This document shows positions 19,793-40,445 of a DNA stretch of 64,000 nucleotides, piece after piece. The notes under the pieces were generated by a model. That model was not told the DNA's origin and did not search any database. It was given only the letters and a program-made list of their open reading frames with translations. Source of the stretch: Candidatus Thermoflexus tengchongensis (lineage in GTDB: Bacteria; Chloroflexota; Anaerolineae; Thermoflexales; Thermoflexaceae); assembly GCA_016842085.1 (NCBI GenBank), contig JAEVEX010000040.1, positions 62,001 through 126,000 on the forward strand, read 5' to 3'. Position 1 is the stretch's first letter. Each line of letters opens with the position of its first letter. The position numbers and the translations under genes were made by a program.

Positions 19793-19831
19793 AGACAGCC
19801 CTCCCAACGGCCCCACGCGGATCAGAGATCC

Positions 19832-23317: not shown

Positions 23318-25639
23318 TCAGAGGGATGTAGAGGCAGCCCGCCGGCGACGGACCCATTCGATGGCCCAGATGGCACCCGGGCGCAGATACATGCTGGCTC
23401 GGAAGTCCCCATACTCGTCCCACGCTTCCGGTGTGCGGAACCAGTAGCCTTTCGCCTCATAAGTCACATGGTAAACACCCCAGGCCGTGTGCCACGCTTC
23501 TTCCACCAATCCCCGGGCCAGCATGGCAGAGGCCAGGGCATAGGTCACCCCAGTCCACACCTCCGCCGACTGATTGCTGCAGCGATCCACCGTCCCATCC
23601 GGCCGCATCCCGTTCACTGCCCCCATCCGGCCACTCGCAAAGCGACAAACATTATATTTATAAATCGTGCGGAATGTCTCCAGGATATGCGGCTCTGGGA
23701 CGATGGGTGGGAGCCCCGTGAGATCGGCATACCACTGGCCAGCGAGCTGATCGGCCATGATGCTATCCCGATGGGGGCTCAGCGCATCATACCGATAATA
23801 GCGACCGTTCCACAACAGCGCCTCGAAGGATTCCTGAGCCCGCCGCAGCCAGCCCTCGTATCGCGATCGAGCCTCTGCATCGCCCACGAGATCGGCCATC
23901 CGCGTGGCAGCCTCCAACGCCGCCAGCCACAGTCCTCCACAATAGGCACTCGGCCCCCGCATCGACCACGTGTCATAGGTCTGATCCGGAATCCCCTCGT
24001 TCTCCGGTAATCCATCGGCATCCCGATCGAAGAGCTTCAGGTATTCTAGTGCCATCCGGACCGATGGCCATCCCATCTCGATCAGCTCTCGATCCTCCGT
24101 GAAGACGTAATCCCGATAAAGCAATAAGACGAACTTGCTGTTCAGATCCTTCCAGACGTTTGGATCCTGAAAACGATAGGCATTCGGCATACGCCACGGA
24201 GCCTCAAGGGGAGAGCCTAGATCATGAGGGGCTGCTCCGGAAAGCTTGCGGGGCGCCTGGCTGCTGTTCGATTCGATGGTACGAAGAGTGAGATCGACCT
24301 GAGGGATCGTCGCGATGAAATCCCGCATCACCGCCTTCTCAAGCTCGGGCCAAAGCATGAGCAGCGGGAACGAGCCGTAGAATCGAACATCCAGGGTCTC
24401 ATAGAACGGATAATCATAACACTCGATCTGAGCGAAATGACCCATCCCATCCGCATCCTCCGGATCCACTACCCAGGCGGTGGCCCCATCGGTGATGAAA
24501 TACAGCTCATTAAACAGCGCGGTGAAATACCAGTCCGGCGCGGTAGGATCCGAGAGGACAGCGTGCTGCCAGGATCGGATTTGATCCCGCCAGGTGGCAT
24601 AATGCTCCAGTGCCTCCCGGGCGATCCCCCAGGCGTTGCGCCCGGAGGTCCCGAAGAAACGGGTATAGCGGCGATACCACCGATCCCCGGCTCCGAACTC
24701 CACCATTGGCAGATCCCAGGCCAGGACGATGGGCACCACCTGTCGCTCGCCCGGCTCCAGGCGGAGGGTAATCGCCAGCCCCGCTCCGACCCGCTCGCCT
24801 TCCGGAATCCGGAGGGCGCCGGGGTCACCCTCCAAGCGTCCATCCGTGGCGAAATCCTCCCAGATCTCCGCTCCATCCCCATCGACTCGAAACCGGGCCC
24901 GGTAACTGACCTCAACCCCGGGGATCTCCAGGGCTGCCAGCGCCCAGGATCCATCCCATGGTTCCCGCACCGACCCCTCGCCGCCGAGCATCTCTACCCC
25001 GACCATCCGGCCACCGGCCAGCCGGTCTTCCCGGGGTCGATGGATCCCGCCGCCCGTCGTCCGATGATCCCATCCGTATCCGAGGAGGTTCTGCCAGGTG
25101 AATAGAATCGCGACTGTAAGAGGCTGCACAGTTGGGTTCTCCACAAACCACAAGAACACCGCCACCGGGTAACTGCTTTCCCGGTAATTGTGGGGGATCA
25201 CTGGGGAGAACTGCTCCACCGCCAACCGCACCGGGAGCTGTTCCCACTCGTAGACGAACCACGATCGAGGATATAGGGCGGCATAGAACCCGGCGCCCAC
25301 TGGATACCGCCATTGCCATGCGGACAGCTCGCGCGCCGGTGCCCCCGTCCACAGCGCCTGGGCCAGGCGTCCATCCGGGCTCTCCACAAAGATCGAGAAC
25401 ATGCACGCTGGGAGCGGCTCATAGCGATGACGACCGGGATCCAGATGCCAGCGGGCGAAGTCCCCTCGATAGGTGCGACCGATTGTCCCGGCCCCGATCC
25501 CCCCCAGCGGGGCACCCTGCCAGTACCCATCGTCGATGCTGACGTGCGGTTGCCGAAGCGAGCGCCCGGCGCTCTCCAGCGGCAAGCCGATCGGACGACG
25601 CCATGCTCCCCGTGGGATCTCCAGCACGATGGATGCCAT
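23318..25639 (-). CDS. GH116 family beta-glucosidase/glucosylceramidase-like enzyme
   Basis: 773 residues, similar in plan to the thermophilic GH116 beta-glucosidase family and human GBA2. An N-terminal beta-sandwich opens with LGGIGAGTIGRTYRGDFARW. An (alpha/alpha)6 barrel follows with ITDGATAWV, a mid-domain 'LLYRDYVFTED' stretch, and DQTYDTWSMRGPSAYCGGLW, which carries the acid/base Asp region. It releases glucose from beta-linked substrates. There is no signal peptide, so a cytoplasmic cellobiase or cellodextrinase fits the locus. ATG 25639 has CAGGAGGCAGAC before it. The longer reading from 25813 adds 58 residues overlapping the regulator gene. Confidence 0.88.
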   Translation of the reverse strand: MASIVLEIPRGAWRRPIGLPLESAGRSLRQPHVSIDDGYWQGAPLGGIGAGTIGRTYRGDFARWHLDPGRHRYEPLPACMFSIFVESPDGRLAQALWTGAPARELSAWQWRYPVGAGFYAALYPRSWFVYEWEQLPVRLAVEQFSPVIPHNYRESSYPVAVFLWFVENPTVQPLTVAILFTWQNLLGYGWDHRTTGGGIHRPREDRLAGGRMVGVEMLGGEGSVREPWDGSWALAALEIPGVEVSYRARFRVDGDGAEIWEDFATDGRLEGDPGALRIPEGERVGAGLAITLRLEPGERQVVPIVLAWDLPMVEFGAGDRWYRRYTRFFGTSGRNAWGIAREALEHYATWRDQIRSWQHAVLSDPTAPDWYFTALFNELYFITDGATAWVVDPEDADGMGHFAQIECYDYPFYETLDVRFYGSFPLLMLWPELEKAVMRDFIATIPQVDLTLRTIESNSSQAPRKLSGAAPHDLGSPLEAPWRMPNAYRFQDPNVWKDLNSKFVLLLYRDYVFTEDRELIEMGWPSVRMALEYLKLFDRDADGLPENEGIPDQTYDTWSMRGPSAYCGGLWLAALEAATRMADLVGDAEARSRYEGWLRRAQESFEALLWNGRYYRYDALSPHRDSIMADQLAGQWYADLTGLPPIVPEPHILETFRTIYKYNVCRFASGRMGAVNGMRPDGTVDRCSNQSAEVWTGVTYALASAMLARGLVEEAWHTAWGVYHVTYEAKGYWFRTPEAWDEYGDFRASMYLRPGAIWAIEWVRRRRAASTSL

Positions 25640-25758
25640 GTCTGCCTCCTGATCGATGGATGCGATGATCGGCAGCCCCTCTTCCCCCCATTCGGCGACC
25701 CTGGGAAGGCGCCACCAGCCCGTGGGCCGCGGGAAACCGACGGAACTTATTCTTCGCA

Positions 25759-26838
25759 CTAATAAGGAAATCCAGGCTCGCCCGAATTCCTGGAGGCAAG
25801 ATCGCCGCGCCACTCCGGCATGCCTATCTGCCGCAGCGCTCCGCAGGAGGCGCGGATCACCAGCTCAGTGGGCAGGATCACCCGCTGAGGCTCTCGAACA
25901 TCCTCCTCCAGCTGGTGGAGGAGGAGCTGGACCGCCACACGGCCCAGCTCATAAATCGGCTGGCGCACGGTGGTTAGCGGTGGATCCGTGAACTGGGCCA
26001 GCTCGACATCATCGTAGCCCACGATGGCCATATCCTCAGGGACCCGCAATCCAGCCTCTCGAAGGGCCTTCAGCGCCCCCATCGCCATCAGATCGCTGGC
26101 CACGAACACCGCATCGGGGCGGGCGGAGAGCAAGCGGCGCATCGCCATATAGCCTCCCGCCTCCGTGAAATCTCCTTCCGCAATCCAATCCGGTGATGGG
26201 CGGATTCCCCATGCCTGAAGGGCCGCCCGATAGCCCTCCAGGCGATCAATCCCTGGAGCCATTGTCTGAGGGCCTGCAATGGTAGCCACCCGACGCCACC
26301 CCAGACGCAGGAGATGTTCGGTGGCCATTCGCCCTCCTCCTACATTGTCCGCATCCACATAGCTGACACCCGGCTCTTGAGGATAACGGCCAATACTGAC
26401 TACGGGGAGACCCTCCTCATACGCTCGACGGATCAAGGGATCCGTGACCTGGGCGGAAAGCACAATGATCCCATCCACGACACGCCCGCGGAGGGCGCGT
26501 TGATAGAAATCCTCCTCCTGAGGAGGAGAGAGGAGGGAGAGCATCAGGTGATACCCCCGCTCCATCAGTGCATCGAAGATCCCTCGCAACACAGCGGGGA
26601 AATACGGATCGCTGAAGACCTTCGGGATGGTTTCAGGGATCACGACACCCACAATCTGACTGCGCCGCGTGACCAGATTGCGGGCCGCCGCATGGGGTTG
26701 ATAGCCCACCTCTCGGATGATCCGCCAGACCCGCTCCCGCACTTCCGGGCGCACATTCGGATGATGGTTGATCACCCGGGAGACTGTCGATCGGGATACC
26801 CCCGCCAGTCGAGCAATTTCTTCCAACGTGTAGTTCAT
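25759..26838 (-). CDS. LacI family regulator of the cellulose locus (CebR-like)
   Basis: 359 residues. The helix-turn-helix is LEEIARLAGVSRSTVSRVI, the hinge region has PHAAARNLV, and a sugar-sensor domain follows. CebR of actinomycetes is a LacI-family repressor that releases TGGGAGCGCTCCCA when cellobiose or cellodextrins bind. The same 14-mer occurs at 27155 in front of the importer gene, and a related palindrome lies upstream of this gene. GH116 follows 119 bases downstream on the same strand, so both may share a transcript. The assignment to a CebR-like function is inferred from operators and neighbours, not from overall similarity. Confidence 0.88.
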   Translation of the reverse strand: MNYTLEEIARLAGVSRSTVSRVINHHPNVRPEVRERVWRIIREVGYQPHAAARNLVTRRSQIVGVVIPETIPKVFSDPYFPAVLRGIFDALMERGYHLMLSLLSPPQEEDFYQRALRGRVVDGIIVLSAQVTDPLIRRAYEEGLPVVSIGRYPQEPGVSYVDADNVGGGRMATEHLLRLGWRRVATIAGPQTMAPGIDRLEGYRAALQAWGIRPSPDWIAEGDFTEAGGYMAMRRLLSARPDAVFVASDLMAMGALKALREAGLRVPEDMAIVGYDDVELAQFTDPPLTTVRQPIYELGRVAVQLLLHQLEEDVREPQRVILPTELVIRASCGALRQIGMPEWRGDLASRNSGEPGFPY

Positions 26839-26853
26839 TCGCCTTCCTCCATG

Positions 26854-26869
26854 ATGAGAGCGCTCTCAT
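26854..26869. promoter_or_regulatory. Palindromic operator upstream of the cellulose-locus regulator
   Basis: Perfect 16-bp palindrome ATGAGAGCGCTCTCAT, 15 bases before the regulator's ATG. It shares the core GAGCGCTC with the operator at 27155-27168. Binding here would block or stall transcription of the regulator and GH116. Confidence 0.75.
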
Positions 26870-26972
26870 ACATGATCTCAAAATCCAATCGACCGTGCGC
26901 TTCAGCCTAAGCCACCCATCAATCAGACCATTTCCCAGAACATCCCCATCTGAAATGTTTAGTGCTCCCCTA

Positions 26973-27001
26973 ATTCTAATCGGATTAACAAATCGCGTCA
27001 A
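26973..27001 (-). promoter_or_regulatory. Promoter of the cellulose-locus regulator
   Basis: On the minus strand TTGACG (27001-26996), 17 bases and TAGAAT (26978-26973). This predicts a start near 26966 and a leader of about 130 bases that includes the operator at 26854-26869. Confidence 0.55.
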
Positions 27002-27118
27002 GGATCCCCCCAAGATATGGCCTAATCCACCCGAATGGGGGCGATCCGAGGATACGGTCCTATGGGCCAGCCTCCCACGGTCGAAACAGTATGACCAACG
27101 GGGAATTTCGGGGATCTC

Positions 27119-27147
27119 TTGACAAAATACCCCATTTATGCTATAAA
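27119..27147 (+). promoter_or_regulatory. Promoter of the cellodextrin importer/cellulase genes
   Basis: TTGACA (27119-27124), a 17-base spacer and TATAAA (27142-27147), one base from the vegetative consensus. The expected transcription start, about 27154-27155, coincides with the first base of the CebR-type operator. Confidence 0.8.
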
Positions 27148-27154
27148 CCTGTTC

Positions 27155-27168
27155 TGGGAGCGCTCCCA
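27155..27168. promoter_or_regulatory. CebR-type operator TGGGAGCGCTCCCA
   Basis: Perfect 14-bp palindrome identical to the operator described for CebR, the cellulose-utilisation repressor of Streptomyces and relatives. It spans the predicted +1 to +14 of the importer promoter, where bound repressor would block initiation. Confidence 0.85.
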
Positions 27169-27176
27169 AAACGCCC

Positions 27177-27246
27177 CGCTGGGTTGGCCGGGATGGGGGA
27201 CGGAAACTACCACGCCGGGTTGGCCCGGATGGGGGATGGAACTGCC
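27177..27246. repeat. Two-copy direct repeat in the 5' leader of the binding-protein mRNA
   Basis: Two similar segments begin at 27177 and 27213 (36-base spacing) and share GGGTTGGCC(C)GGATGGGGGA plus the following (C/T)GGAA. They lie between the operator and the ribosome binding site AGGAGGAACAGCC. Function unknown. Confidence 0.5.
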
Positions 27247-27303
27247 CGCTTTGGGGATTCAATAGACCACCCATCCTAACAAACCTGTTCAGGAGGAACA
27301 GCC

Positions 27304-29103
27304 ATGAAGCGCCTGAGCCTGCTGCTCGCTTACCTGGTTGTCATCGCAGGGATGCTGTTGACCGCCTGTCAAGCGGCACCCTCACCCACCCCCTCGCCCA
27401 CCGCCGCGCCTGCTACCCCGCCGCCGGGGCCTACGCCAACCGCCGCCCCTCCTCCAGCCACCCCGACGCCCGCTGCAGTCGTCTATTCGCGTGAGGAGAC
27501 GCTTTACACCAGCGGCACCCAGTGGGGCCCCCCCTCCAACTGGAACCCGCTCCAAACCGGCACGTATGCGATGGGAACCATCGGCCTCTGCTATGAAACC
27601 CTCTTCCTCTACGATCCATTGAAGAACGAATACATCCCATGGCTGGCCGAGAAGGGCAACTGGACCAGCGACAACGTCTATGAGGTGAAGCTCCGCCAGG
27701 GGATCACCTGGGCGGATGGACAACCTATGACTGCCGAGGACATCGTCTACACATTTGAGTTGGGCAAGCTGGAGGGCGTCTACTACAAGCCGCTTTGGGA
27801 TTACTTGGAGAAGGTGGAGGCCGTGGACAACCTCACGGTCCGCTTCACCTTCAAGGAAGTGCACCATCAGGCATGGAGCAACCTGTTGTATTCAGTAGCC
27901 ATCGTCCCCAAGCATGCTTGGCAGGGGCGCTCCCAGCAGGAGATCGTCAACGGTCAGAACCTGCCTCCGCTGTGCTCTGGTCCCTATGTCTACGAGACCC
28001 ACTCCGAGGATCGGGTGGTCTGGAAGCGCAACGATAACTGGTGGGGGACCAAGCTCCTGGGCAAATCGGTAGCGCCACGCTACATCGTGGATGTGGTCAA
28101 CCCCAGCAACAACGTGGCGCTGGGCTTGGTGCTCAAGGGCGAGGTGGACCTGAGCAACAACTTCCTGCCAGGGATCGCCACGCTGGTCCAGGGCGGCTAT
28201 GGTGTCAAGACCTGGTATGACAAGCCGCCTTACATGCTCGCGGCGAACACTGCCTTCCTGTTCGTGAACCACAACAAGAAGCCCTTGAACGATGCCAATT
28301 TCCGAAAAGCCCTCGCCTATGCCATCAACGTGGATGAAATTGTGAACCGGGTCTACGGCAACATCGTTCAGAAGGCGAACCCGACCGGCCTGCTCCCGGT
28401 CTGGGAGCGCTTCGTGGATCAGAACGTCGCCCAGTCGCTGGGCTTCTCCTATGACCCCAACCGGGCCAAGCAGATCCTGGCCCAGGCCGGGTATCGGGAT
28501 ACCAATGGGGATGGCTTTGTGGAAGCGCCAGACGGGTCCCCGATCCAGCTGAAGATTATCGTCCCGAACGGTTGGACGGACTGGATGGAGGCGGCCAAGG
28601 TGATCGCCAGCAGCGCCCAGGCGGTGGGGATCAATCTCCAGGCGGACTTCCCGGACTTCGGCGCCTACTGGGATCAGCTGACGGGCGGCACCTTCGATAC
28701 GGCCATCAACAACTTTGGCTCCCAGATGAGCAACACGCCGTGGACCTTCTACCTGTGGCTGTTCCGGCACCCCATCACCGACAAGATGAACGATGGCAAC
28801 TATGGCCGCTATAACAATCCCCAGGTGTTCGACCTGGTGGATCAGCTGGATCGGACACCTGTGACGGATGAGGCGCGGATGAAGCAGATTATCAGCCAGA
28901 TCCAACGGATCCAGCTCCAGGAGATGCCGGCCATCCCGCTCTGGTATAACGGCCTGTGGGCTCAGTGGAACGAGACCTACTGGACCAACTGGCCATCCGC
29001 GGCAGAGGGCGCGCCCAAGTATCTGCCGTGCACCTGGCGGGGTTACTGGAATATGACGGCTATCTTGATGCTGACGGAACTGAAGCCCAAGCCGAAGCGG
29101 TAG
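27304..29103 (+). CDS. Oligosaccharide/peptide ABC transporter substrate-binding lipoprotein (family 5)
   Basis: 599 residues. The signal peptide ends LLTAC with lipobox Cys22, followed by a Pro/Ala/Thr tether (about 24-55). The family 5 (DppA/OppA-type) fold is seen in SNWNPLQ, the YDPLKNEYIPWLAEKG region, VKLRQGITWADGQPMTAED, and FRKALAYAINVDEIV. Family 5 proteins of thermophiles such as Thermotoga bind cellobiose and other beta-glucans, and the surrounding cellulases suggest the same here. It is the first gene behind the operator-controlled promoter. Its permeases and ATPases are encoded 7.5 kb downstream, after the cellulases. Confidence 0.92.
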   Translation: MKRLSLLLAYLVVIAGMLLTACQAAPSPTPSPTAAPATPPPGPTPTAAPPPATPTPAAVVYSREETLYTSGTQWGPPSNWNPLQTGTYAMGTIGLCYETLFLYDPLKNEYIPWLAEKGNWTSDNVYEVKLRQGITWADGQPMTAEDIVYTFELGKLEGVYYKPLWDYLEKVEAVDNLTVRFTFKEVHHQAWSNLLYSVAIVPKHAWQGRSQQEIVNGQNLPPLCSGPYVYETHSEDRVVWKRNDNWWGTKLLGKSVAPRYIVDVVNPSNNVALGLVLKGEVDLSNNFLPGIATLVQGGYGVKTWYDKPPYMLAANTAFLFVNHNKKPLNDANFRKALAYAINVDEIVNRVYGNIVQKANPTGLLPVWERFVDQNVAQSLGFSYDPNRAKQILAQAGYRDTNGDGFVEAPDGSPIQLKIIVPNGWTDWMEAAKVIASSAQAVGINLQADFPDFGAYWDQLTGGTFDTAINNFGSQMSNTPWTFYLWLFRHPITDKMNDGNYGRYNNPQVFDLVDQLDRTPVTDEARMKQIISQIQRIQLQEMPAIPLWYNGLWAQWNETYWTNWPSAAEGAPKYLPCTWRGYWNMTAILMLTELKPKPKR

Positions 29104-29122
29104 ACCCCCATGCCCCCGATTC

Positions 29123-29173
29123 GTTCCCCCTGGGGGCCTGAGCGAGGGGCCCCCAGGGGGAACCAGTGTTTTT
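29123..29173 (+). terminator. Rho-independent terminator or attenuator after the binding-protein gene
   Basis: Perfect 16-bp stem (29123-29138 with 29148-29163) and a nine-base loop, then five T's at 29169-29173. Placed directly after the binding-protein stop, it would make that transcript far more abundant than the downstream genes. Confidence 0.8.
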
Positions 29174-29223
29174 CAGGACGAGGGAAGCCTGAAATAGGTC
29201 TAACCGGTCCCGCGGAGAAAGGG

Positions 29224-30408
29224 ATGATCACCCTGGAATGTGCTGTGATCGACCGAGGCCCTCTTTTCCGGGAAGCCTTAGAACGATCGCTGGAGTCCAT
29301 TCCGAAGCGGGAGCATGTGGAGATCCGCTGGACCTGGCTCAGCTGGCCTGCTGCTTGGTCTGAGTTCGTGCAGCGCATTGTTCATCGCACAGCCCCCGAT
29401 GTGATGGAGCTGGGATCCACGTGGGTGCCCACCTTCCGCGCAATGAACGCCTTGCGACCGTTCTCCCCCTCCGAAATCCGTATGCTGGGAGGAGTGGATC
29501 GATTCCTGCTGCCGCTATGGCGATCAGCCCGCAGTGAGGAGATGACATGGGGGATCCCATGGCTCGCAGATCTCCGGCTTGTCTTTTACCGCAAGGATGC
29601 CCTTGAGAGAGCTGGGGTAGACGAGCGTGCTTTCCGAATGTTCAAGGATCCGACAGAGTTTGAACGCATGTTGCGCGACTTGTCCGCCCGGCAATCGCTA
29701 CGCCCATGGGTGGTCCCTACCACGCCGGAACGAAACACGCTTCACCATATCGCCAGCTGGGTCTGGTACTACGGTGGTGATTTCGTGAAGCCCGATGGAA
29801 CCCTGGCTTTCGCTGAGGAACCGGCCCTGCGGGGCATCTGCGCCTACTTCCGCTTGGGACCCCTCATGGGATGCCCGATCCCTCGACTCCATGCGGAGCA
29901 AGCGGACCAGATGTTCTGGGAGGGACACGCTGCTGCGACCATCGGGGGATGGTGGATCTGGGACTACGCCGGGGATGCCCTGCGCCCTTACATCGGCTTG
30001 GCCCTTCCTCCAGGCCCACCCTTCCTCGGCGGATCGCTGTTAGGGATGTGGCGGGAAACGCGAGTTCCTAACGAGATCCTGATCGCTGTGCTGGCCCGTA
30101 TGGTTCATCCGGATACGCTCTTGAGGATCACCCGTATCCCCGGTACACCGCTGCCCGCCCAGCCCGATCTCCTCATCGAACGGGTAGCGAATCTGCCACA
30201 GCCAGACTTGGAAATCATGCGAACCGGGATGTATTACTCGAACACCTTCCCATCATTCTCATTATTCGGGGTAATAGAAGACCGATTAACAGACACACTT
30301 GGAAAGATATGGGCGGAGATTATGAATTGCCCGGAGGATATTGAGTCGATTGTTCGATCTCATTTGAGGCATGCTTACTCTGCGATCCGCCGCGCAATTT
30401 CCTCGTAA
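29224..30408 (+). CDS. Family 1 solute-binding-protein-like protein without signal peptide
   Basis: 394 residues that look like a periplasmic sugar-binding protein: RTAPDVMELGSTWVPTF, WGIPWLADLRLVFYRKDALERAG, ASWVWYYGGDFV, FWEGHAAATIGGWW and a C-terminal helical end. Yet it begins MITLECAVIDRGPLF, with no hydrophobic leader and no lipobox Cys. Reading further upstream does not add one either. GGAGAAAGGG precedes ATG 29224. It could be a cytoplasmic sugar sensor or chaperone-like partner of the locus, or a binding protein that lost its export signal. It lies between the importer binding protein and the cellulases. The function is not known to me. Confidence 0.75.
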   Translation: MITLECAVIDRGPLFREALERSLESIPKREHVEIRWTWLSWPAAWSEFVQRIVHRTAPDVMELGSTWVPTFRAMNALRPFSPSEIRMLGGVDRFLLPLWRSARSEEMTWGIPWLADLRLVFYRKDALERAGVDERAFRMFKDPTEFERMLRDLSARQSLRPWVVPTTPERNTLHHIASWVWYYGGDFVKPDGTLAFAEEPALRGICAYFRLGPLMGCPIPRLHAEQADQMFWEGHAAATIGGWWIWDYAGDALRPYIGLALPPGPPFLGGSLLGMWRETRVPNEILIAVLARMVHPDTLLRITRIPGTPLPAQPDLLIERVANLPQPDLEIMRTGMYYSNTFPSFSLFGVIEDRLTDTLGKIWAEIMNCPEDIESIVRSHLRHAYSAIRRAISS

Positions 30409-30442
30409 GCTCTTCCTTAGCAATCCGCTAAAGGAGGTGGCC

Positions 30443-33130
30443 ATGAACGCAGATAAGATCCGAAATGGAGTGGCGGTGTTCGGGGCCTTCTTCGGGCTGG
30501 TCTTGGCAACGGTGTTGCTTTTAAGCCGATCCCAACCAGCGGAAGGTGCGATCATTCAGATTTGCGATAAGTGGGGAGCCACTTATGTAGCTGGTGGAGC
30601 ATACTGGGTGCAAAACAACATCTGGGGAGCTGATACCGCTCAATGTATCCAGGTGGATGACACCAACGGGAACTTCACCGTGGTGCAATCCGCCCATAAC
30701 AACACCGGCGGCACCCCCGCTGCCTATCCCTCCATTGTGAAGGGATGCCACTGGGGCACCTGCACCCAAAACAGCAGTCTTTCGGTGTCTGTGAGCCAGC
30801 TGAACAGCGTCACCAGCAATTGGACCATCACGCCTATCAGCGGCGGGGCATGGAACGCCGCCTACGATATCTGGCTGAGCCCCAATCTGGATACAACGAA
30901 CGGCTATAACGGTGGGGCTGAGATCATGATCTGGCTGAACTGGAACGGGAACATTCAGCCTGCGGGCTCCCGCATCGCCACCGTAGCTATCGCTGGGGCA
31001 ACATGGGAGGTATGGTATGCCCAGATGAATTGGAATTACATCGCCTATCGGCGAACGACCCCCACGAATGGCGTAAGCAACCTGGACATTCTGGCCTTCA
31101 TTAATGATGCGATCAGTCGAGGATATGTGCAACAGAGCTGGTATCTCCACGCCGTGGAAGCAGGATTTGAGATCTGGCAGGGCGGCACCGGGCTGGCCAG
31201 CAGTGGATTCTCAGTCACAGTGAACGCGGCAGCTCCACCTTCACCAGGGTCGCCCACCCCCACGCCGGTGGCGCCCACCGCCACGCCCACCCCGAGCAGT
31301 GGCAGCGCCTGCCAGGTCGCCTACACCGTGACCAACCAGTGGCCCGGCGGCGCCACCGTGAACGTGACAATTACCAACACCACCAGCAGCCCCATCAACG
31401 GCTGGACGCTGGAATGGGACTTCCCCAACCCCAGCCAGCAAATCACCAACCTCTGGAACGGCTCCTACTCCCAAACCGGACAGCACGTGACAGTGACCAA
31501 TGCCGCCTGGAACGGAACAATCCCAGCCGGCAGCTCCGTAACCTTCGGATTCAACATGAGCTGGAGCGGATCGAACCCGGCGCCCAGCAGCTTCACCCTG
31601 AACGGACAACCGTGCGGCGGCACCGCCGGCGGTGGCCCCCAGCCCACCCCCACCCCCACGCGCACCCCCACGCCGGCGGCACCTACCGCCACCCCCACGC
31701 GCACGCCCACGCCGGTGGCGCCTACCGCCACGCCCACCCGCACGCCCACGCCGGTGGCGCCCACCGCCACCCCCACCCGCACGCCCACACCGACACTCAC
31801 CTCTACGCCGGGGCCTACACCAACGCCACCCCCTTCAGGAACCCATTTGGACAATCCATTCATCGGAGCCATCGGCTACGTGAATCCGGACTGGGCAACC
31901 AATGTGATCAGCCAAGCGAACCAAACGGCCGATCCAACCTTGGCGGCTCAAATGCGTAAGGTGGCCACCTACTCCACAGCTGTCTGGTTGGATCGTATCG
32001 CCGCCATCACCGCTGGCCGCGGATTGCGCGGGCATTTGGATGAAGCGCTACGCCAAATGCAGCAAGCTGGCCAGCCGGTTGTGATCACCCTTGTGATCTA
32101 TGATCTGCCAAATCGAGATTGCTCTGCTGCTGCCTCCAATGGCGAATTACTGGTCGCCCAGAATGGACTGGCCCGCTACAAAGCGGAGTTCATCGATCCC
32201 ATCGTAGCCATTCTCTCAGATCCCCGATATGCCGGGCTACGCATCGTCACCATCATCGAACCGGACTCCTTACCCAACCTGGTCACGAACCTCAGCATCC
32301 CGGCATGCGCAGAAGCTCAGAATGCATATATCGAAGGGATCCGCTATGCGGTGAACCGGCTGCGGACAATTCCCAACGTCTACATCTATCTGGATATCGC
32401 CCACTCAGGCTGGTTGGGCTGGGATAATAACTTTAATGGGGCAGTAAATCTATACACCCAAGTTGTGCAAGGAATGGATCAAGGGTTTAACAGTATCGAT
32501 GGATTCATCACCAACGTTGCCAACTATACCCCCCTCGAAGAACCCTATTTGCCCGATCCCAACCTGACCATCGCTGGGCAACCCGTTCGCTCTGCCAGCT
32601 TCTACGAATGGAACCCCTACTTTGATGAGCTGGATTACGCTCTGGCTCTGCGCAACGCTTTTATCGGACGAGGCTTCCCCAGCACCATTGGGATGCTCAT
32701 CGATACCAGCCGAAACGGGTGGGGCGGATGCAGCTATGGGCGATGCAGGCCCACGGGTCCCAGTTCAGATACCAGCAGCGTGAATGCCTACGTGGACGGC
32801 TCGCGAGTAGACCGACGCTATCATCGGGGCAACTGGTGTAACCAGGCGGGTGGGATCGGCGAGCGCCCTCAGGCCGCACCGCGGTCCGGTATCGACGCCT
32901 ACGTGTGGGTGAAACCACCTGGGGAGTCCGATGGGGTCAGCCAACCCGGGATCGTCGATCCCGACGATCCCAACAAGAAGTTCGATCCTATGTGTGATCC
33001 CAACGGACAGAGCCGGTATAACTCCGCATACCCAACTGGGGCTCTGCCCAACGCGCCCCACGCTGGGCGGTGGTTCCCGCAGCAGTTCGAAATCCTGGTG
33101 CGGAACGCCTATCCGCCGATCCAACCCTAA
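30443..33130 (+). CDS. Secreted trimodular cellulase GH12-CBM2-GH6
   Basis: 895 residues with a Sec signal peptide (about 1-35). The GH12 endoglucanase domain (about 37-262) has nucleophile E160 in GGAEIMIWL and acid/base E243 in FEIWQGGTG. A short Pro/Thr linker leads to a family 2 cellulose-binding module (about 290-391) bounded by C290 and C391 with exposed Trp residues. A long TPTRTPTP linker (393-466) leads to a GH6 domain (about 468-890) with YDLPNRDC (D559 is the expected proton donor) and IEPDSLPNLVTN (D608). Thus one chain joins an endoglucanase with a GH6 enzyme that may attack chain ends. AAAGGAGGTGG precedes ATG 30443. The gene starts 34 bases after its upstream neighbour. Confidence 0.93.
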   Translation: MNADKIRNGVAVFGAFFGLVLATVLLLSRSQPAEGAIIQICDKWGATYVAGGAYWVQNNIWGADTAQCIQVDDTNGNFTVVQSAHNNTGGTPAAYPSIVKGCHWGTCTQNSSLSVSVSQLNSVTSNWTITPISGGAWNAAYDIWLSPNLDTTNGYNGGAEIMIWLNWNGNIQPAGSRIATVAIAGATWEVWYAQMNWNYIAYRRTTPTNGVSNLDILAFINDAISRGYVQQSWYLHAVEAGFEIWQGGTGLASSGFSVTVNAAAPPSPGSPTPTPVAPTATPTPSSGSACQVAYTVTNQWPGGATVNVTITNTTSSPINGWTLEWDFPNPSQQITNLWNGSYSQTGQHVTVTNAAWNGTIPAGSSVTFGFNMSWSGSNPAPSSFTLNGQPCGGTAGGGPQPTPTPTRTPTPAAPTATPTRTPTPVAPTATPTRTPTPVAPTATPTRTPTPTLTSTPGPTPTPPPSGTHLDNPFIGAIGYVNPDWATNVISQANQTADPTLAAQMRKVATYSTAVWLDRIAAITAGRGLRGHLDEALRQMQQAGQPVVITLVIYDLPNRDCSAAASNGELLVAQNGLARYKAEFIDPIVAILSDPRYAGLRIVTIIEPDSLPNLVTNLSIPACAEAQNAYIEGIRYAVNRLRTIPNVYIYLDIAHSGWLGWDNNFNGAVNLYTQVVQGMDQGFNSIDGFITNVANYTPLEEPYLPDPNLTIAGQPVRSASFYEWNPYFDELDYALALRNAFIGRGFPSTIGMLIDTSRNGWGGCSYGRCRPTGPSSDTSSVNAYVDGSRVDRRYHRGNWCNQAGGIGERPQAAPRSGIDAYVWVKPPGESDGVSQPGIVDPDDPNKKFDPMCDPNGQSRYNSAYPTGALPNAPHAGRWFPQQFEILVRNAYPPIQP
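31261..31700. repeat. CBM2-linker DNA repeat, copy A
   Basis: About 440 bases covering the linker and CBM2 of the GH12/GH6 gene. By eye they differ at about eight positions from 35436-35875 in the GH48 gene. Identity includes synonymous sites, so the copies are recent or kept alike by gene conversion. Confidence 0.9.
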
Positions 33131-33157
33131 CAGATTTTGGGAAACCAAGGTCCTTGC

Positions 33158-33184: not shown

Positions 33185-33360
33185 CTTTCCTCACGATTTA
33201 ACCGTATCCTGAGCGGTTGATTTATAGCACAATTTGTGCCCTTGGGAACTTCAGGCTACTTGGGTGCTCTCCGGAGGATTTTTTAATTCGCTTGAGATCA
33301 GGAACCCCTTCCCTCGGCCCTTAAGGAGCACTCAATCTGCGATCCATTAGGGAGGTGGCC

Positions 33361-35961
33361 ATGACCTCAAATCAGATCCGACGCGGAATACTCGTATTGG
33401 TGGCCTTTCTCGGGTTGACGATTGCTATAGCGCTGCTTCTGACCCCATCCCAACCAGCGAAAGGAAACACTAATATCTACATTAATCGATTTATTGAACT
33501 ATGGAATGAGCTACATGATCCAACTAATGGATATTTCAGTCCACAAGGGATTCCTTATCATTCGGTTGAAACCCTAATTGTTGAAGCGCCTGACTATGGG
33601 CATGAAACCACCAGCGAAGCCTACAGTTATTGGGTCTGGCTAGAAGCGATGTATGGACATCTCACAGGCGATTGGTCTTATTTACAAAATGCATGGAACA
33701 GCATGGAAACTTATATCATACCCACACATGCTGATCAACCAAACAACAATTGCTCCTACAAAGCCACCTATGCACCAGAAGGCGATTTTCCCAGCGATTA
33801 TCCGGTCGCATTGGATCCGAATGTGAGCGTAGGAAACGATCCGATTTGCAATGAATTGGCCCAAACCTATGAGACCTCGGATATTTATGGTATGCACTGG
33901 CTGCTGGATGTAGACAACTGGTATGGTTACGGGCAGCGAGGTGATGGGGCCAGTAAACCCTCTTATATTAACACCTTCCAGCGAGGTCCTGAGGAATCGG
34001 TATGGGAAACGGTGCCCCACCCTTCTTGGGAAGCCTTTCGATGGGGTGGAGCCAATGGTTTTCTGGATCTCTTCATCCGGCAGCCATCGGGATGGCAATA
34101 CGCCCAGCAATATCGTTACACCGATGCTCCCGATGCGGATGCTCGGGCAATTCAGGCTATATATTGGGCTAAGCGGTGGGCAGATGCCCAAGGCGGCTCG
34201 CCTGTTGTCGATAGCTTGACACGCAAAGCCGCCAAGCTGGGAGACTACTTACGCTACGCTTTCTTTGATAAATATTTCAAAGTCATCGGGTGTAATAGCC
34301 CCTCCTGTCCCGCTGGCACTGGATACGACAGCGCTCACTATCTGCTTTCTTGGTATTATGCTTGGGGCGGCCCGACGAGCGGCGGTGGATGGGCCTGGCG
34401 CATTGGCTCAAGCCATGTGCACTTCGGTTATCAGAACCCAGTAGCAGCCTGGGCGCTGAGTCAGATATCGGCCCTCCGCCCATCCTCCCCACGGGGTGCT
34501 GCCGATTGGGCCACGAGCTTGAACCGCCAGCTTGAGTTTTATCGTTGGCTTCAATCGACAGAAGGGGCTATTGCTGGCGGCGCCACCAACTCCTGGAATG
34601 GTCGCTATGACCCGCGACCCGCTGGCGTCTCTACGTTCTATGGCCTCGCCTATGTCGAACATCCAGTCTATCACGATCCCGGTAGTAACACATGGTTCGG
34701 ATGGCAAGCCTGGTCCATGGAGCGAGTGGCTGAATATTATTACCTGACCGGCGATCAGCGGGCTGGTGAGATACTTAACAAGTGGGTGGCCTGGGTGAAG
34801 AGCGTGGTTCGATTGCTGCCTAATGGCGATTATGAAATTCCGGCCACGCTGGCCTGGAGCGGACAACCAGACCCATGGAATCCCAACAACCCCGGCCCAA
34901 ACAGCAATCTCCATGTCACGGTTGTGGCCTATAACAAAGATGTGGGGATTACCGCGTCTCTGGCCAGGGCACTCACGTATTATGCAGCTGCCACGGGCGA
35001 TACTGGTTCCCAGCAGCTGGCCAAAGAGCTGTTAGATCGAATGTGGAACCTTTATCGTGATGAGAAGGGTGTATCTGCACCCGAGGTACGTGAGGACTAT
35101 CGTCGTTTCAACGATGAAGTTTACATCCCTGCAGGATGGATGGGCACAAACGCGCAGGGTGCTATTATCCAGCCAGGCATCACTTTTATCGGAATACGAC
35201 CGAAGTACTTGCAAGATCCGGATTGGCCTAAGGTGCAGGCTTATCTCAACGGCGGCCCAGCGCCTGAATTCCGCTACCATCGTTTCTGGGCCCAAGTTGA
35301 AGTGGCCTTGGCCAATGCTGTCTATGGGGAGCTTTTGGGCGGTGGTGTGACCCCAGCACCGACCTCCACGCCGGCCACCCCTGTTGCCACATCGACACCG
35401 CCGGCCCAGCCTACCGCCACCCCCACGCGCACGCCCACGCCGGTGGCGCCCACCGCCACCCCCACCCCGAGCAGTGGCAGCGTCTGCCAGGTCGCCTACA
35501 CCGTGACCAACCAGTGGCCCGGCGGCGCCACCGTGAACGTGACAATTACCAACACCACCAGCAGCCCCATCAACGGCTGGACGCTGGAATGGGACTTCCC
35601 CAACCCCAGCCAGCAAATCACCAACCTCTGGAACGGCTCCTACTCCCAAACCGGACAGCACGTGACAGTGACCAATGCCGCCTGGAACGGAACAATCCCA
35701 GCCGGCAGCTCCGTAACCTTCGGATTCAACATGAGCTGGAACGGATCGAACCCGGCGCCCAGCAGCTTCACCCTGAACGGACAACCGTGCGGCGGCACCG
35801 CCAGCGGCGGCCCCCAGCCCACCCCCACGCCCACGCGCACGCCCACACCGGCGGCACCTACCGCCACCCCCACGCCAACACCGGGCAGTGGTCCGAACCT
35901 GAGGATCAACCCACAAGGTTTCGCAGGCGCGGGCGCTCGGTTATCGGGCGGCCGTTCTTGA
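33361..35961 (+). CDS. Secreted GH48-CBM2 cellobiohydrolase with truncated C-terminal extension
   Basis: 866 residues with a signal peptide (about 1-35) closely resembling that of the GH12/GH6 enzyme. The GH48 catalytic domain runs from about 37 to 655 and opens with [17 protein letters not shown]. In [18 protein letters not shown]86 matches the proton donor and E75 the second conserved Glu. GH48 enzymes release cellobiose from reducing ends and are the hallmark of true cellulolytic bacteria. A Pro/Thr linker, CBM2 (about 709-810) and a second linker follow. The frame then runs for about 15 residues into sequence belonging to a GH5 domain and stops. ATG 33361 follows GGGAGGTGGCC. Confidence 0.93.
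35436..35875. repeat. CBM2-linker DNA repeat, copy B
   Basis: Partner of 31261-31700 in the same orientation. Recombination between the two would delete or duplicate 4175 bases and reshuffle the catalytic domains. Confidence 0.9.
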
Positions 35962-36607
35962 AGTTCACGACACGACCGGCTACGGAGAAGACGCAGCAGC
36001 GTGTTCGATGACGACGGCGGTCAATTATTGGATTGAACTGAAGAGCGTGCTGGCGGGTCAGGAGAATTTCGTGATCGTCAATATCGGCAATGAACCGTAC
36101 GGGAACAACAATTATCAGAACTGGGTGACGGACACGCGGAACGCGATACAGGCGCTGCGGAACGCGGGGATCAACAACACGATCATGGTGGACGCTCCGA
36201 ACTGGGGTCAGGACTGGTCGTTCACGATGCGGGACAATGCACCGACGATTTTCAACGCGGACCCGCAGAGGAACCTGGTGTTTTCGATCCACATGTACGG
36301 GGTGTACGACACGGCGGCGGAAGTGCAGAGCTATATTCAATCGTTTGTAAACCGCGGTTTGCCGCTGGTGATCGGGGAATTCGGCTATATGCATACTGAC
36401 GGGGATCCGGACGAACAGGCGATCGTGCAGTATGCGAAGCAGTATAACATTGGGCTGTTCGGCTGGTCGTGGAGCGGTAACGGAGGCGGCGTGGAATATT
36501 TGGATATGGTAGTGAACTTTGATGCGAACCGCCCGACGCCGTGGGGGACATGGTTCCGGGCGAACGCGATCGGGACATCGATGGTCAACATGGGCGGCAG
36601 CCCTTGA
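35921..36607 (+). pseudogene. GH5 (beta-mannanase type, GH5_8-like) catalytic domain remnant
   Basis: In a different frame from the GH48 reading, the sequence continues [20 protein letters not shown], then NIGNEPYGN (acid/base Glu) and VIGEFGY (nucleophile Glu), to a normal end PWGTWFRANAIG. The HDTTGYGE segment is characteristic of bacterial GH5 subfamily 8 mannanases. The first strands of the barrel, roughly 70-90 residues, are missing, and the junction with the GH48-CBM2 linker is out of frame. An ATG at 36008 could start a 199-residue fragment, but it would lack the first part of the barrel. Probably a former third catalytic module or neighbouring gene joined by deletion. Confidence 0.75.
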
Positions 36608-36684
36608 TCGCAGAGGGAAGGGATCGCGGATTGCCCTGGACGGATCGCCACCCTTGTGCCATCCTATGAGAAGGAGAGAGAGCC

Positions 36685-37671
36685 TTGGCACGGTATCTGA
36701 GCCGTAAATTGATGATCTATATCTTCACCTTTTTCGTGGCGGTCACGATCGACTGGTTGATTCCTCGCCTGATGCCTGGGAATCCAGTGGACATCATGGT
36801 CTCCCGGATGGCTTTGCGTGCGGATGTGGCGGAAGTGATGCGAAGCTACTACTTGCGAGCATTTCAGCTGGATCTTCCCCTTTGGCAACAATATCTCAAT
36901 TTCTGGGCTGCCCTGCTCCGAGGCGATCTGGGGATCAGCATCTGGCTGTTCCCTCAGCCTGTCCTCTCCGTGATTGCCCGGGCCGTTCCTTATGATCTTT
37001 TTCTTCTTGTTCCAGCGATCCTGCTGAGCTGGATTCTCGGAAATCAGATTGGGGCCATGGCCGCGCGCGTTCGCTGGCTGGATAATACCATCCTCCCTCT
37101 CGGCTATATCCTGACGGCTACACCTTATATGTGGTTGGCCCTCTTGCTGGCCTGGGCCTTGGGGCACGTCGTCAAGATCTTCCCCATCGCTGGGGCCTAT
37201 AGCTTCAACATACGGCCCCATCTTTCATGGCTCTTCATCAAAGACCTCTTGTGGCACTGGTTCCTCCCCTTTCTCTCTTTATTTCTGGTCATGTTTGGCG
37301 GCTGGGCCATCGGCATGCGAAACATGATCATCTACGAATTGGAAGCGGAGTATTCACGATACCTGGGCTCTCTTGGCGCCTCCCAACGTCTCATCCGACG
37401 CTATGCGTTCCGGAACGCCATACTGCCTCAGATCACCGGGCTCGCCTTACAGCTGGGCGCAATTGTCGCTGGGGCCGTCGCAACTGAAATCGCCTTCGCT
37501 TATCCAGGAACCGGATATCTGATCCTGCAGGCTGTCCAAAACCAAGATTACTTCCTGTTGCAGGGGTGCTTTCTGTTCATTATCACGGGTGTTTTGCTTG
37601 CCAATTTCGTGATCGATATCATCTACACGCTGGTAGATCCCCGAACCCGCCTCGGCATGGTAGGGGAATGA
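36685..37671 (+). CDS. Oligosaccharide/peptide ABC transporter permease (DppB/OppB type)
   Basis: 328 residues with six membrane spans and the DppB-type order: an N-terminal span (DWLIPRLMPGNPVD), a periplasmic helix region (LDLPLWQQYLNFW, LLRGDLGIS), and a conserved loop YLGSLGASQRLIRRYAFRNAILP that contacts the ATPase. The start is TTG 36685 with AAGGAGAGAGAGCC before it; no ATG is better placed. It overlaps the next permease region closely. A decayed paralogue is at 43415-45231. Confidence 0.92.
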   Translation: MARYLSRKLMIYIFTFFVAVTIDWLIPRLMPGNPVDIMVSRMALRADVAEVMRSYYLRAFQLDLPLWQQYLNFWAALLRGDLGISIWLFPQPVLSVIARAVPYDLFLLVPAILLSWILGNQIGAMAARVRWLDNTILPLGYILTATPYMWLALLLAWALGHVVKIFPIAGAYSFNIRPHLSWLFIKDLLWHWFLPFLSLFLVMFGGWAIGMRNMIIYELEAEYSRYLGSLGASQRLIRRYAFRNAILPQITGLALQLGAIVAGAVATEIAFAYPGTGYLILQAVQNQDYFLLQGCFLFIITGVLLANFVIDIIYTLVDPRTRLGMVGE

Positions 37672-37694
37672 TCACTACCGTAGGGGGGGAAGCA

Positions 37695-38543
37695 ATGGGA
37701 AGCCGTTCGGAGCTCCTCTATTTCGCGTGGCGCAATGTGAAATTGCGCATCGGCCTGGGGATCCTGCTGGTGTTCACCTTGGCCGCTTTGATCGGCCCGT
37801 ATTTCGCTCACCACGACCCGAATGCATATGTGGGACCGCCAGGATATCCCCCCTCCGCGGAATACTGGTTGGGGACCACCACCTTCGGCCAGGATGTCTA
37901 TTCTCAGTTCGTGCATGGGCTTCGCTCAACGTTTGTTGTGGGCCTTCTGGGAGGTGGAATTGGTACCATATTAGGTGTGTGTATCGGGCTGCTGGCGGGT
38001 TATCGGGGAGGATGGGTGGATGAGATCTTGAACATGTTCACGAACATCATCTTGATCCTGCCCACCCTGGCGGTCCTGATCATCATCGCCGCTTATCTGA
38101 CCGTGCGCGGGATTGTGGTTGAGAGCATCTTTATTGGCTGCACTTCATGGCCATGGGCCGCCCGAGCCATTCGGGCCCAGACGTTCTCCCTGCGCGTTCG
38201 TGAGTTCGTGGATCTGGCTCGGATGAGCGGACGGGGGACGTTGAAGATCATGCTCACCGAGATCGCTCCCAACATGATGTCTTATCTCTTCATGGTGTTC
38301 ATTCTCCAGTTCGGCGGTGCGATCCTGAACGCGGCCACGCTGGATTTCATCGGACTAGGCCCCACCCAGGGGGTCTCCTTGGGGTTAATGCTGAACAATG
38401 CGGTGCTCTGGGCTGCTCTCCAGCTGGGGATGTGGTGGTGGCTGATCCCACCTGGAGCCGCTATCACCGCCATCGTCGGCGCTTTATATGTGATGAATGT
38501 GGGCCTCGATGAGATCTTCAACCCCAAGCTCCGCGAATTGTGA
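37695..38543 (+). CDS. Oligosaccharide/peptide ABC transporter permease (DppC/OppC type)
   Basis: 282 residues. DppC-like features are the N-terminal span, the FAHHDPNAYVGPPGYPPSAEYWLGT segment (in two parts), TTFGQDVYSQFVHGLR, six spans and an EAA-type loop (VDLARMSGRGTLKIMLTEI). ATG 37695 has GGGGGGAAGC before it. An alternative ATG at 37668 overlaps the upstream stop by four bases and would add nine residues. It pairs with the DppB-type permease. Confidence 0.92.
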   Translation: MGSRSELLYFAWRNVKLRIGLGILLVFTLAALIGPYFAHHDPNAYVGPPGYPPSAEYWLGTTTFGQDVYSQFVHGLRSTFVVGLLGGGIGTILGVCIGLLAGYRGGWVDEILNMFTNIILILPTLAVLIIIAAYLTVRGIVVESIFIGCTSWPWAARAIRAQTFSLRVREFVDLARMSGRGTLKIMLTEIAPNMMSYLFMVFILQFGGAILNAATLDFIGLGPTQGVSLGLMLNNAVLWAALQLGMWWWLIPPGAAITAIVGALYVMNVGLDEIFNPKLREL

Positions 38544-38552
38544 GGGAAAGCC

Positions 38553-39503
38553 ATGGCGCTCCGAGTGGAGAATCTGCGTATCTACTATCGCACTCTTCAT
38601 GGATACGTCCACGCCGTGGAAGGGGCTACCTTCTCCGTCCGCGATGGTGAAATTATGGGGCTGGCCGGGGAATCCGGCTGCGGGAAGACAACCCTGGGCC
38701 ATAGCCTGGTCTATATGAAGCCTCCAATGATTTATATGGAAGGGAAAGTCTTCCTGGATGGGCAAGAGCTTCCCATCTGGGATATGCGACGCATGAACGA
38801 GTTCCGCTGGCGCCTTGTCTCGATTATCCCCCAGTATGCGATGAATGCGCTGAATCCCACCCGTCGTATCGGACATCTCATCGCAGATCTGTTGGCCGAG
38901 CGAGGCTTGAGCTACAAGCATGTCCTACCTGAGCTGAAGCGAAGGCTGGATCTGGTTCAGCTTTCACCAGAGGTTCTAGATCGATATCCCTTCGAGCTAT
39001 CCGGAGGGATGCGTCAGCGAATGGTCATGGTGATCTCAACGCTGTTAAATCCGTCGCTGCTCATCGCCGATGAGATCACTTCCGCCCTGGATGTTTCTAC
39101 CCAGAAAGCAGTATGCGAAATGATTATCGAGTTCCGCAATCGCGGGTTTGTTCGCAGCACTATTTTCATTACTCACGATATGTCCATCCTTTATCAGATC
39201 GCCGATACGGTTCTGGTGATGTATGCTGGGCAGCTCGTCGAGAAGGCTCCGGTCGAGGAGATCTTCCGGTCTCCACGCCATCCATACACGCGTATGCTCA
39301 TCGCGGCTCTCCCACGAGTCGGGGCGCGGCAGCGAACGGAGCGCCTGCGGGGGATTCCGGGATCCCCGCCCCGGTTATTGGATCCGCCGCCCGGATGCCG
39401 CTTTCGGGACCGCTGCCCGGTCGCTTTCGAGCGTTGCACAGAGACTCCCCCGTTCGTTGAGGTAGAGCCGGGCCATTTCGTAGCCTGCTGGCGGGAGATC
39501 TGA
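38553..39503 (+). CDS. Oligosaccharide/peptide ABC transporter ATP-binding protein (OppD type)
   Basis: 316 residues. Walker A is GESGCGKTT (39-47), the signature is ELSGGMRQRM, Walker B is LLIADEITSALDV, and the H-loop is IFITHDMS. The C-terminal oligopeptide-transporter domain has the cysteine pattern PGCRFRDRCPVAFERCTE, which binds an Fe-S cluster in some homologues. Ten bases separate it from the permease gene, and three from the next ATPase gene. Confidence 0.93.
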   Translation: MALRVENLRIYYRTLHGYVHAVEGATFSVRDGEIMGLAGESGCGKTTLGHSLVYMKPPMIYMEGKVFLDGQELPIWDMRRMNEFRWRLVSIIPQYAMNALNPTRRIGHLIADLLAERGLSYKHVLPELKRRLDLVQLSPEVLDRYPFELSGGMRQRMVMVISTLLNPSLLIADEITSALDVSTQKAVCEMIIEFRNRGFVRSTIFITHDMSILYQIADTVLVMYAGQLVEKAPVEEIFRSPRHPYTRMLIAALPRVGARQRTERLRGIPGSPPRLLDPPPGCRFRDRCPVAFERCTETPPFVEVEPGHFVACWREI

Positions 39504-39506
39504 ACA

Positions 39507-40445
39507 ATGCTCGCCCTGGAGAATGTGACTAAGATCTATCGGACCGGTGCCCTGGGCCTCCGTAGGCTCACCGCAGTCTCAGAGGTCAGCTTCGAGATCG
39601 GTGAGCGGGAGATCGTCGCCCTGATCGGAGAGAGCGGAAGCGGCAAAAGCACGATCGGCAAGATGATCCTCCGGCTCCTGCGCCCCACCTCGGGGACCAT
39701 CCGCTTCGAGGGCCAGGACATCTTCGCCTTGAACGGCCGAGCGGTCAAGGATTACTACCGTAAGGTTCAGGGGGTCTTCCAGGATCCCTTCGCCTCTTAT
39801 AACCCGATCTTCAAGGCCGATCGGATCTTCGCGCTGATCCGCGAGGAGTTCTTCCCCCATCTCAGCCGAGCTCAGTGGGAGCAGAAAGTGGAGGAGGCAT
39901 TAAGGGCCGTTGGCCTGAACCCGCCCGATGTCCTGGGCAAATACCCCCACCAATTGAGTGGCGGGCAGCTCCAGCGCTTCCTGATCGCCCGCGCCTTGCT
40001 ACTGGATATCCGGCTGCTGGTGGCCGATGAAATCATCAGCATGCTGGATGCCTCCACCCGCGTGGATGTGCTGAATCTGTTGGGGGACCTGCGGGAGCGA
40101 GGGCTCTCGATCCTCTTCATCACCCACGATCTCTCGCTCGGGCACTATATCAGCGATCGGGCCATCGTCCTCTACCGGGGGCGCATTGTGGAGATGGGAC
40201 CGACGGAGCGCGTGTATGCCCGGCCTCTCCACCCATACACTGAGATGCTGATGGCTTCCGTTCCGCGGATCGATCAGAAGTGGGCTCGCCAGCCAGCCCG
40301 TATGGAGCAGTCCGTTACCCCGGGACCGACCGGATGTGTCTACTACGGGCGGTGTCCCATCGCCCAGGAGATTTGCAGCCGGCGCATGCCGGAACTGGTG
40401 GAGGTGGAAGCCGGCCACTATGTCGCATGCTTTATGCGATCTTGA
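39507..40445 (+). CDS. Oligosaccharide/peptide ABC transporter ATP-binding protein (OppF type)
   Basis: 312 residues. Walker A is GESGSGKST (41-49), the signature is QLSGGQLQRF, Walker B is LLVADEIISMLDA, and the H-loop is LFITHDLSLG. The C-terminal cysteine segment is GCVYYGRCPIAQEIC. The OppD signature motif of the partner and this one are both intact, so both nucleotide sites should work. It ends the importer set that begins with the binding protein at 27304. Confidence 0.93.
   Translation: MLALENVTKIYRTGALGLRRLTAVSEVSFEIGEREIVALIGESGSGKSTIGKMILRLLRPTSGTIRFEGQDIFALNGRAVKDYYRKVQGVFQDPFASYNPIFKADRIFALIREEFFPHLSRAQWEQKVEEALRAVGLNPPDVLGKYPHQLSGGQLQRFLIARALLLDIRLLVADEIISMLDASTRVDVLNLLGDLRERGLSILFITHDLSLGHYISDRAIVLYRGRIVEMGPTERVYARPLHPYTEMLMASVPRIDQKWARQPARMEQSVTPGPTGCVYYGRCPIAQEICSRRMPELVEVEAGHYVACFMRS

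Follow-up and report, generated by a model that had tools for sequence, protein, structure and literature searches.

The CebR/CebEFG/BglC and CelR systems of actinomycetes, as set out in PMC5332605 and PMC3377646, combine a LacI-family regulator and its 14-bp operator with an importer, an intracellular β-glucosidase, and cellulases of families GH12, GH48, and GH6. In Streptomyces, the CebR consensus operator reads TGGGAGCGCTCCCA, and in Streptomyces scabies boxes of this sequence precede the GH12, GH48, and GH6 cellulase genes as well as the cello-oligosaccharide importer (PMC5332605). We found the same set of functions, with the identical operator, in Candidatus Thermoflexus tengchongensis, within a stretch of 64,000 nucleotides (positions 62,001 to 126,000 of contig JAEVEX010000040.1), here called the window. 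Two parts differ, however: where the actinomycetes use the CUT1 importer CebEFG and a GH1 β-glucosidase, this locus encodes a family-5 substrate-binding protein (SBP5) with OppBCDF and a GH116 enzyme. This exchange behind a CebR-type operator, proposed in an earlier sequence-only reading of the window, was borne out by Pfam and by the identity of the operator with the CebR consensus. Moreover, the operator is repeated before each cellulase gene in the actinomycetes but confined to one promoter region here: the lacI gene lies next to the importer and a conserved TGGGAGCGCTCCCA stands at the importer promoter, whereas none precedes the cellulase genes. The locus is a cellulose utilization regulon of known type with a different importer and β-glucosidase, apparently built by gene gain. 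Judged from its sequence, it is very probably an uptake and hydrolysis locus for β-1,4-oligosaccharides in a thermophilic member of the Anaerolineae, to which this lineage has added two genes for secreted cellulases by insertion. It would exemplify how an oligosaccharide scavenger comes to degrade cellulose once genes for secreted enzymes have entered an uptake operon that was already in place and regulated.

The regulator, the GH116 enzyme, the family-5 importer, and the GH12/GH6 and GH48 cellulases named by the sequence-only reading were all recovered by Pfam where it had placed them (Table 1), and its assignment of the genome to the Chloroflexota held. Its inventory had omitted two genes, one, in the stretch 29110-30408, for a family-1 sugar-binding protein without signal sequence (cytSBP) and one a GH5 remnant. 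The importer set is complete, comprising the SBP5 lipoprotein (SBP_bac_5, E = 3e-70), two BPD_transp_1 permeases, and two ABC_tran ATPases with an oligo_HPY tail. In GH116, both the catalytic (E = 9e-148) and the N-terminal domain (E = 8.5e-96) are present, and the nearest structure was the TxGH116 β-glucosidase (5bvu; 764 residues aligned, E = 5e-271). Its N terminus, as read from the translation, carries no export signal, and the enzyme is predicted to be located in the cytosol. Comparisons were made with eight congeners and, for GH48, with 396 sampled genomes of the class. GH116 was 79 to 85% identical in five congeners, whose proteins start at about residue 47 to 59; the gene here likely starts at 25639 rather than at 25813. 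None of the NCBIfam equivalog models matched the LacI protein above cutoff.

The two cellulases contain GH12 (E = 1.7e-34), GH6 (E = 9e-103), and GH48 (E = 0) domains together with CBM2. The GH48 domain is essentially complete (profile positions 1 to 618 of 619) without internal stops, and its best match in the PDB was 4l0g (E = 1e-288). All 427 of 427 aligned residues of the GH6 domain were identical to HmCel6A (PDB 6k52), a thermostable, experimentally active cellobiohydrolase with an optimum of 75°C, which was cloned from Japanese hot-spring sediment DNA and reported as a catalytic domain on its own, with no genome of origin; its authors reported only 76% similarity to the GH6 domain of Ardenticatena maritima (PMC8940973). 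The earlier claim of a cellulose locus with secreted cellulases is borne out, and the cellulases are of complementary families. In contrast to the published lone domain, the GH6 domain here stands at the C terminus of a GH12-CBM2-GH6 enzyme encoded within an importer operon. The window supplies a likely native setting for HmCel6A, with a GH12 endoglucanase-type domain and CBM2 in the same polypeptide and GH48-CBM2 encoded by the next gene. A likely genome, a native architecture, and a partner enzyme are now given for HmCel6A, so that the native pair can be tested. The Acidothermus cellulolyticus cluster Acel_0614-0619 likewise has one gene with GH6 and GH12 domains and GH48 in the same cluster, but the part of PMC3377646 that describes it speaks of glycosyl hydrolases and does not mention importer genes within it. 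A CBM2-linker block of 450 bp with 97.8% DNA identity was present in both cellulase genes of the window (31251-31700 and 35426-35875), pointing to a recent duplication or gene conversion.

Comparison with relatives separated an older uptake unit from the cellulase genes. GH116-LacI//SBP5-OppBCDF was present in five of the eight congeners, mostly at 77 to 90% identity, on one contig in G001, G004, G005, and G007 (with lacI broken in G007) and on two in G002. LacI-SBP5-OppBCDF without cellulases also occurred in three other families of the class (G009, G020, and G028; 51 to 75% identity). In all relatives with the unit, OppB followed 3' of SBP5 within about 0.1 to 0.7 kb; here, the cellulase genes are placed between the two. 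GH48 was not detected in any of the eight congeners searched and was detected in 7 of the 396 sampled genomes, and GH6 was not found in any of the eight congeners. The sampled flanks of GH48 in four of those genomes (G040, G052, G345, and G362) contained no complete importer, the contigs of G153 and G302 being too short. From this distribution we infer that GH116-LacI, the operators, and SBP5-OppBCDF form the ancestral unit and that the cellulases were gained in this lineage, since gain needs one event here whereas loss elsewhere would need many. Low G+C was not specific to the insert (Opp genes 57% here versus 59 to 64% in two congeners). The locus remains a cellulose or β-glucan locus, much as the sequence-only reading had it, but not one designed unit: an older uptake/GH116 locus gained cellulases. 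In congeners G005 and G001, a predicted membrane protein of ∼70 amino acids (aa) is encoded between SBP5 and OppB (L074:5464-6123 and L077:7698-8362, respectively), in the place of cytSBP and the cellulases.

Between the divergent halves of the locus (GH116/LacI on the minus strand, SBP5 onward on the plus strand) lie two palindromic operators. The perfect 14-mer next to SBP5 occurred only once in the 3.89-Mb genome. Because both operators are also present between the orthologous genes of four congeners (G001, G002, G004, and G005), the pair is more than a chance occurrence; the LacI-side operator TGAGAGCGCTCTCA was identical in position and sequence in three of them and differed by one base in G002. 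A TTGACA-N17-TATA-like promoter directly before the SBP5-side operator was found in the same four congeners, where the promoter-operator block is retained amid otherwise divergent DNA, and in G009 and G020, where the block is located before the lacI gene. Lying 7 bp after the −10 element, the operator is so placed that a bound repressor would block transcription. Both of the "shared operator sites" postulated earlier are hence real and conserved, but they are confined to one intergenic region and none lies before the cellulases: between 29104 and 40445, no site with fewer than 2 mismatches was detected, and the 2-mismatch match fell inside oppC. Genome-wide, 41 forward matches with ≤2 mismatches were obtained versus 9 for the reversed control. 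We do not claim a wider regulon; the sole further site with 1 mismatch (C75:2725) falls within a predicted coding gene.

The part of the locus most likely to be new is the family to which cytSBP belongs. The window protein has neither a signal peptide nor a lipobox, yet its AlphaFold model has a complete binding-protein fold (predicted local distance difference test, 93.4). The nearest folds were those of the Thermus thermophilus β-glycosides-binding protein (7c63 series) and Clostridium thermocellum CbpB (7x0i), with VIA Z of 43 to 44 and root mean square deviations of 2.3 to 2.9 Å over about 380 residues. Trp41 and Trp67, which the depositors of the Thermus protein had mutated, are both kept, and Glu117 is replaced by Asp. 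The comparison, made with the 7c6f sequence, gave no counterpart of the Thermus residue Trp177, probably because a residue marked X is missing from that sequence. Whereas the Thermus protein is by its title a component of an ABC importer, cytSBP lacks an export signal; no dedicated CUT1 permease genes are present in its operon in the window, and NCBIfam models gave no match. A scan of genomes of the class and of GTDB contigs yielded 46 unique members, the window copy among them; nearly all are in Chloroflexota metagenome-assembled genomes, and one is on a contig binned as Bacteroidetes. In the family tree, the Chloroflexota members were separate from actinobacterial ones. Statistics on the partner labels of this tree were not used, because duplicate loci lacked labels. 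All 11 actinobacterial relatives had lipoprotein signals, and their highest 14-residue hydropathy was 1.91 to 2.48, versus at most 1.67 among the 46 members, most of which have their start no more than a few residues from the mature domain. For most copies, a panel scan of relatives detected no adjacent permease genes. Neighboring enzymes belonged to GH94 (15 cases), GH3 and GH13 (4 each), and GH1 (3), with single cases of GH4, GH5, GH16, GH20, GH116, and GH130. Since carbohydrate-active enzyme (CAZyme) genes also occur farther out in the flanks (33 matches near versus 12 far), co-orientation and immediate adjacency are the sharper signals.

On the simplest reading of these neighborhoods, the cytosolic protein would bind an oligosaccharide beside the enzyme that cleaves it. 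We tentatively propose an Anaerolineae family of cytosolic oligosaccharide-binding proteins that may descend from binding proteins of importers and have lost the signal peptide, with the window copy as a divergent member; we hold this to be plausible, somewhat short of probable. Its partners would be GH94, GH1, GH3, GH116, GH4, GH13, and GH130 enzymes, and its role that of a sensor, a buffer, or a means of substrate delivery. A literature search found no description of a cytosolic or signal-less binding protein of this kind, although a search of PMC only cannot prove absence. These are widespread sugar-binding proteins that apparently never leave the cell, and for which we found no described function. 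Signal-less binding proteins encoded 3' of GH13 α-glucosidase-type genes formed a well-supported clade (L108, L111, L113, and L114), which suggests that the cytosolic family may cover α-glucosides too. At L109:90-7125, OppD/OppF-type ATPase genes, GH130, a signal-less binding protein, and a 600-aa lipoprotein-like gene lie in a row, resembling the window arrangement with a mannoside phosphorylase.

It is conceivable, if rather doubtful, that cytSBP is instead functionless and decaying, the remains of an ordinary binding protein of an importer after loss of its signal peptide. In congener G004 the gene is present as a pseudogene, no copy turned up in the other congeners examined, and the window copy forms the longest branch of the family tree, without firm placement and with two near-invariant residues lost; it may be decaying in this genus. 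The family as a whole argues otherwise, and the claim for it is independent of the window copy. None of the 46 Chloroflexota members had a signal peptide, most are full-length open reading frames (ORFs), of the sugar-site residues, Trp41 was conserved in 42 of 45 members and Trp67 in all 45, and 29 of 46 had a panel glycosidase or phosphorylase gene no more than 1.2 kb away, every such neighbor being on the same strand. The family, signal-less, conserved, and CAZyme adjacent, is therefore not a product of decay, though the window copy might be.

Other points weigh against reading the whole as a regulated cellulose locus. The operators stand upstream of SBP5 alone, and neither the cellulase genes nor oppB has one of its own. 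Immediately 3' of SBP5, ahead of the cellulases, the sequence can fold into a terminator-like hairpin (17-bp stem, T-rich tail). Cellulases and permeases would therefore be expressed from the controlled promoter only by read-through, unless a second promoter serves them; in G002 and G004, G/C-rich inverted repeats were seen by eye at this position. Furthermore, the assembly is a draft metagenome-assembled genome in 100 contigs, the near-identical CBM2 repeat is a site where short reads can misjoin, and the GH5 remnant carries a frameshift. That the cellulase genes come from elsewhere and were joined here through the repeat is nevertheless highly improbable: the repeat is internal to both cellulase genes, away from the joints with cytSBP or OppB, both genes have an intact ribosome-binding site and start, and the flanking genes on both sides are collinear with those of congeners on a contig of 179 kb, which also makes misbinning unlikely. 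A different doubt concerns the substrate. SBP5 was 46% identical to Thermotoga mannoside-type binders (PDB 4pft, 1vr5, and 4pfu), versus 34% to the cellobiose binder tmCBP (2o7i). From their names, we take the mannoside-type entries to be TM1223/TM1226 and their ligands to be as named; our literature search found no paper on them. The Thermotoga family-5 importers are kin in SBP5 but differ in regulator, GH116 partner, and cellulases. Five of the six tmCBP tryptophans that stack on the sugar (PMC3850815) are kept in SBP5 (W15, W380, W383, W510, and W535), whereas W426 aligns to Asn. The GH5 remnant after GH48-CBM2, whose Pfam Cellulase match begins at profile position 107 and which is neither full length nor in frame, is 62 to 71% identical to full-length GH5 genes near the locus in G002 and G007; the G007 enzyme was closest to β-mannanase 1bqc. 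With a LacI/CUT1/GH38-type operon adjoining as well, importer and regulator could serve mainly β-manno- or mixed glucomanno-oligosaccharides, the cellulases being a recent side addition and cellulose not the main substrate. We consider this unlikely, as the intracellular partner GH116 is closest to a β-glucosidase, the operon lacks a mannoside phosphorylase or mannosidase, the operator equals the cello-oligosaccharide CebR box, and both intact inserted enzymes are cellulases. Given the SBP5 similarities and the mannanase-type remnant, a mixed diet of cello- and manno-oligosaccharides is possible, and the operator, together with the two secreted enzymes that are intact, favors cellulose as the substrate. 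GH48 and GH5 of this type travel together elsewhere too: in G362 (L139:7368-14369), the gene immediately 3' of a 1,666-aa multidomain GH48 gene encodes a GH5 enzyme akin to the remnant, with a CBM2-type domain.

For a cellulose and β-1,4-oligosaccharide locus, we infer the following scheme, including its inducer, the transported sugar, cotranscription of the cellulases, the direction of gene gain, and the role of cytSBP. Without sugar, LacI would occupy both operators, the one that directly follows the promoter and the one by its own start, to be released by an imported cello- (or gluco- or manno-) oligosaccharide. SBP5 and OppBCDF would import oligosaccharides, which cytosolic GH116 would trim to the monosaccharide. 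Outside the cell, GH12-CBM2-GH6 and GH48-CBM2 would attack cellulose within the chain and from both ends, feeding the importer; transcription of their genes would either continue past the hairpin that follows SBP5 or begin at another promoter. Inside the cell, oligosaccharide would be bound by cytSBP, whose gene lies between those of SBP5 and the cellulases.

Table 1. Genes and sequence signals of the locus, in window coordinates
Feature	Position	Strand	Basis and remarks
GH116 β-glucosidase-type enzyme	23318..25639	-	Pfam DUF608/Glyco_hydr_116N, TxGH116 match; ORF opens at 25813
LacI-family regulator	25759..26838	-	Pfam LacI and Peripla_BP_3; orthologue adjoins SBP5 in congeners and three further families
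Operator TGAGAGCGCTCTCA, LacI/GH116 side	26855..26868	.	Palindrome; conserved in congeners
Promoter TTGACA-17-TATAAA into SBP5	27119..27147	+	Sequence; spacing conserved in relatives
Operator TGGGAGCGCTCCCA	27155..27168	.	Perfect 14-mer, equals CebR consensus; 7 bp after −10
SBP5, lipoprotein family-5 oligosaccharide-binding protein	27304..29103	+	Pfam SBP_bac_5
Terminator/attenuator-like hairpin after SBP5, 17-bp stem	29123..29163	+	Sequence
cytSBP, signal-less family-1 sugar-binding protein	29224..30408	+	Pfam SBP_bac_1
Secreted GH12-CBM2-GH6 cellulase	30443..33130	+	GH12 30599-31225, CBM2 31310-31615, GH6 31847-33127
Secreted GH48-CBM2 cellulase	33361..35961	+	GH48 33478-35334, CBM2 35485-35790
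GH5 β-mannanase remnant	35918..36607	+	Pfam Cellulase; out of frame with GH48-CBM2, N-terminal part gone
OppB-type permease	36685..37671	+	Pfam BPD_transp_1; 85-88% identical in congeners
OppC-type permease	37566..38543	+	Pfam; start probably inside ORF
OppD-type ATPase	38553..39503	+	Pfam ABC_tran/oligo_HPY
OppF-type ATPase	39507..40445	+	Pfam ABC_tran/oligo_HPY

The adjoining operon (window 12330-22450, minus strand) has its own LacI, a secreted family-1 binding protein, a permease-type gene, and an ATPase, as well as a CehA/McbA-type metallohydrolase and a GH38-type (mannosylglycerate hydrolase-like) enzyme. A GH94 gene was sought in the cellulase locus but is not present there; a 797-aa GH94 is encoded in a second importer locus of the genome (L143; G000:C30:12000-27000), together with SBP5/Opp and CUT1-type permeases, and this GH94 also occurs in congener G001. 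Beyond the Opp genes (window 45254-47047, minus strand), a 597-aa protein with weak GH5/GH1-like TIM-barrel similarity is encoded, which adjoins the Opp genes in congeners too.

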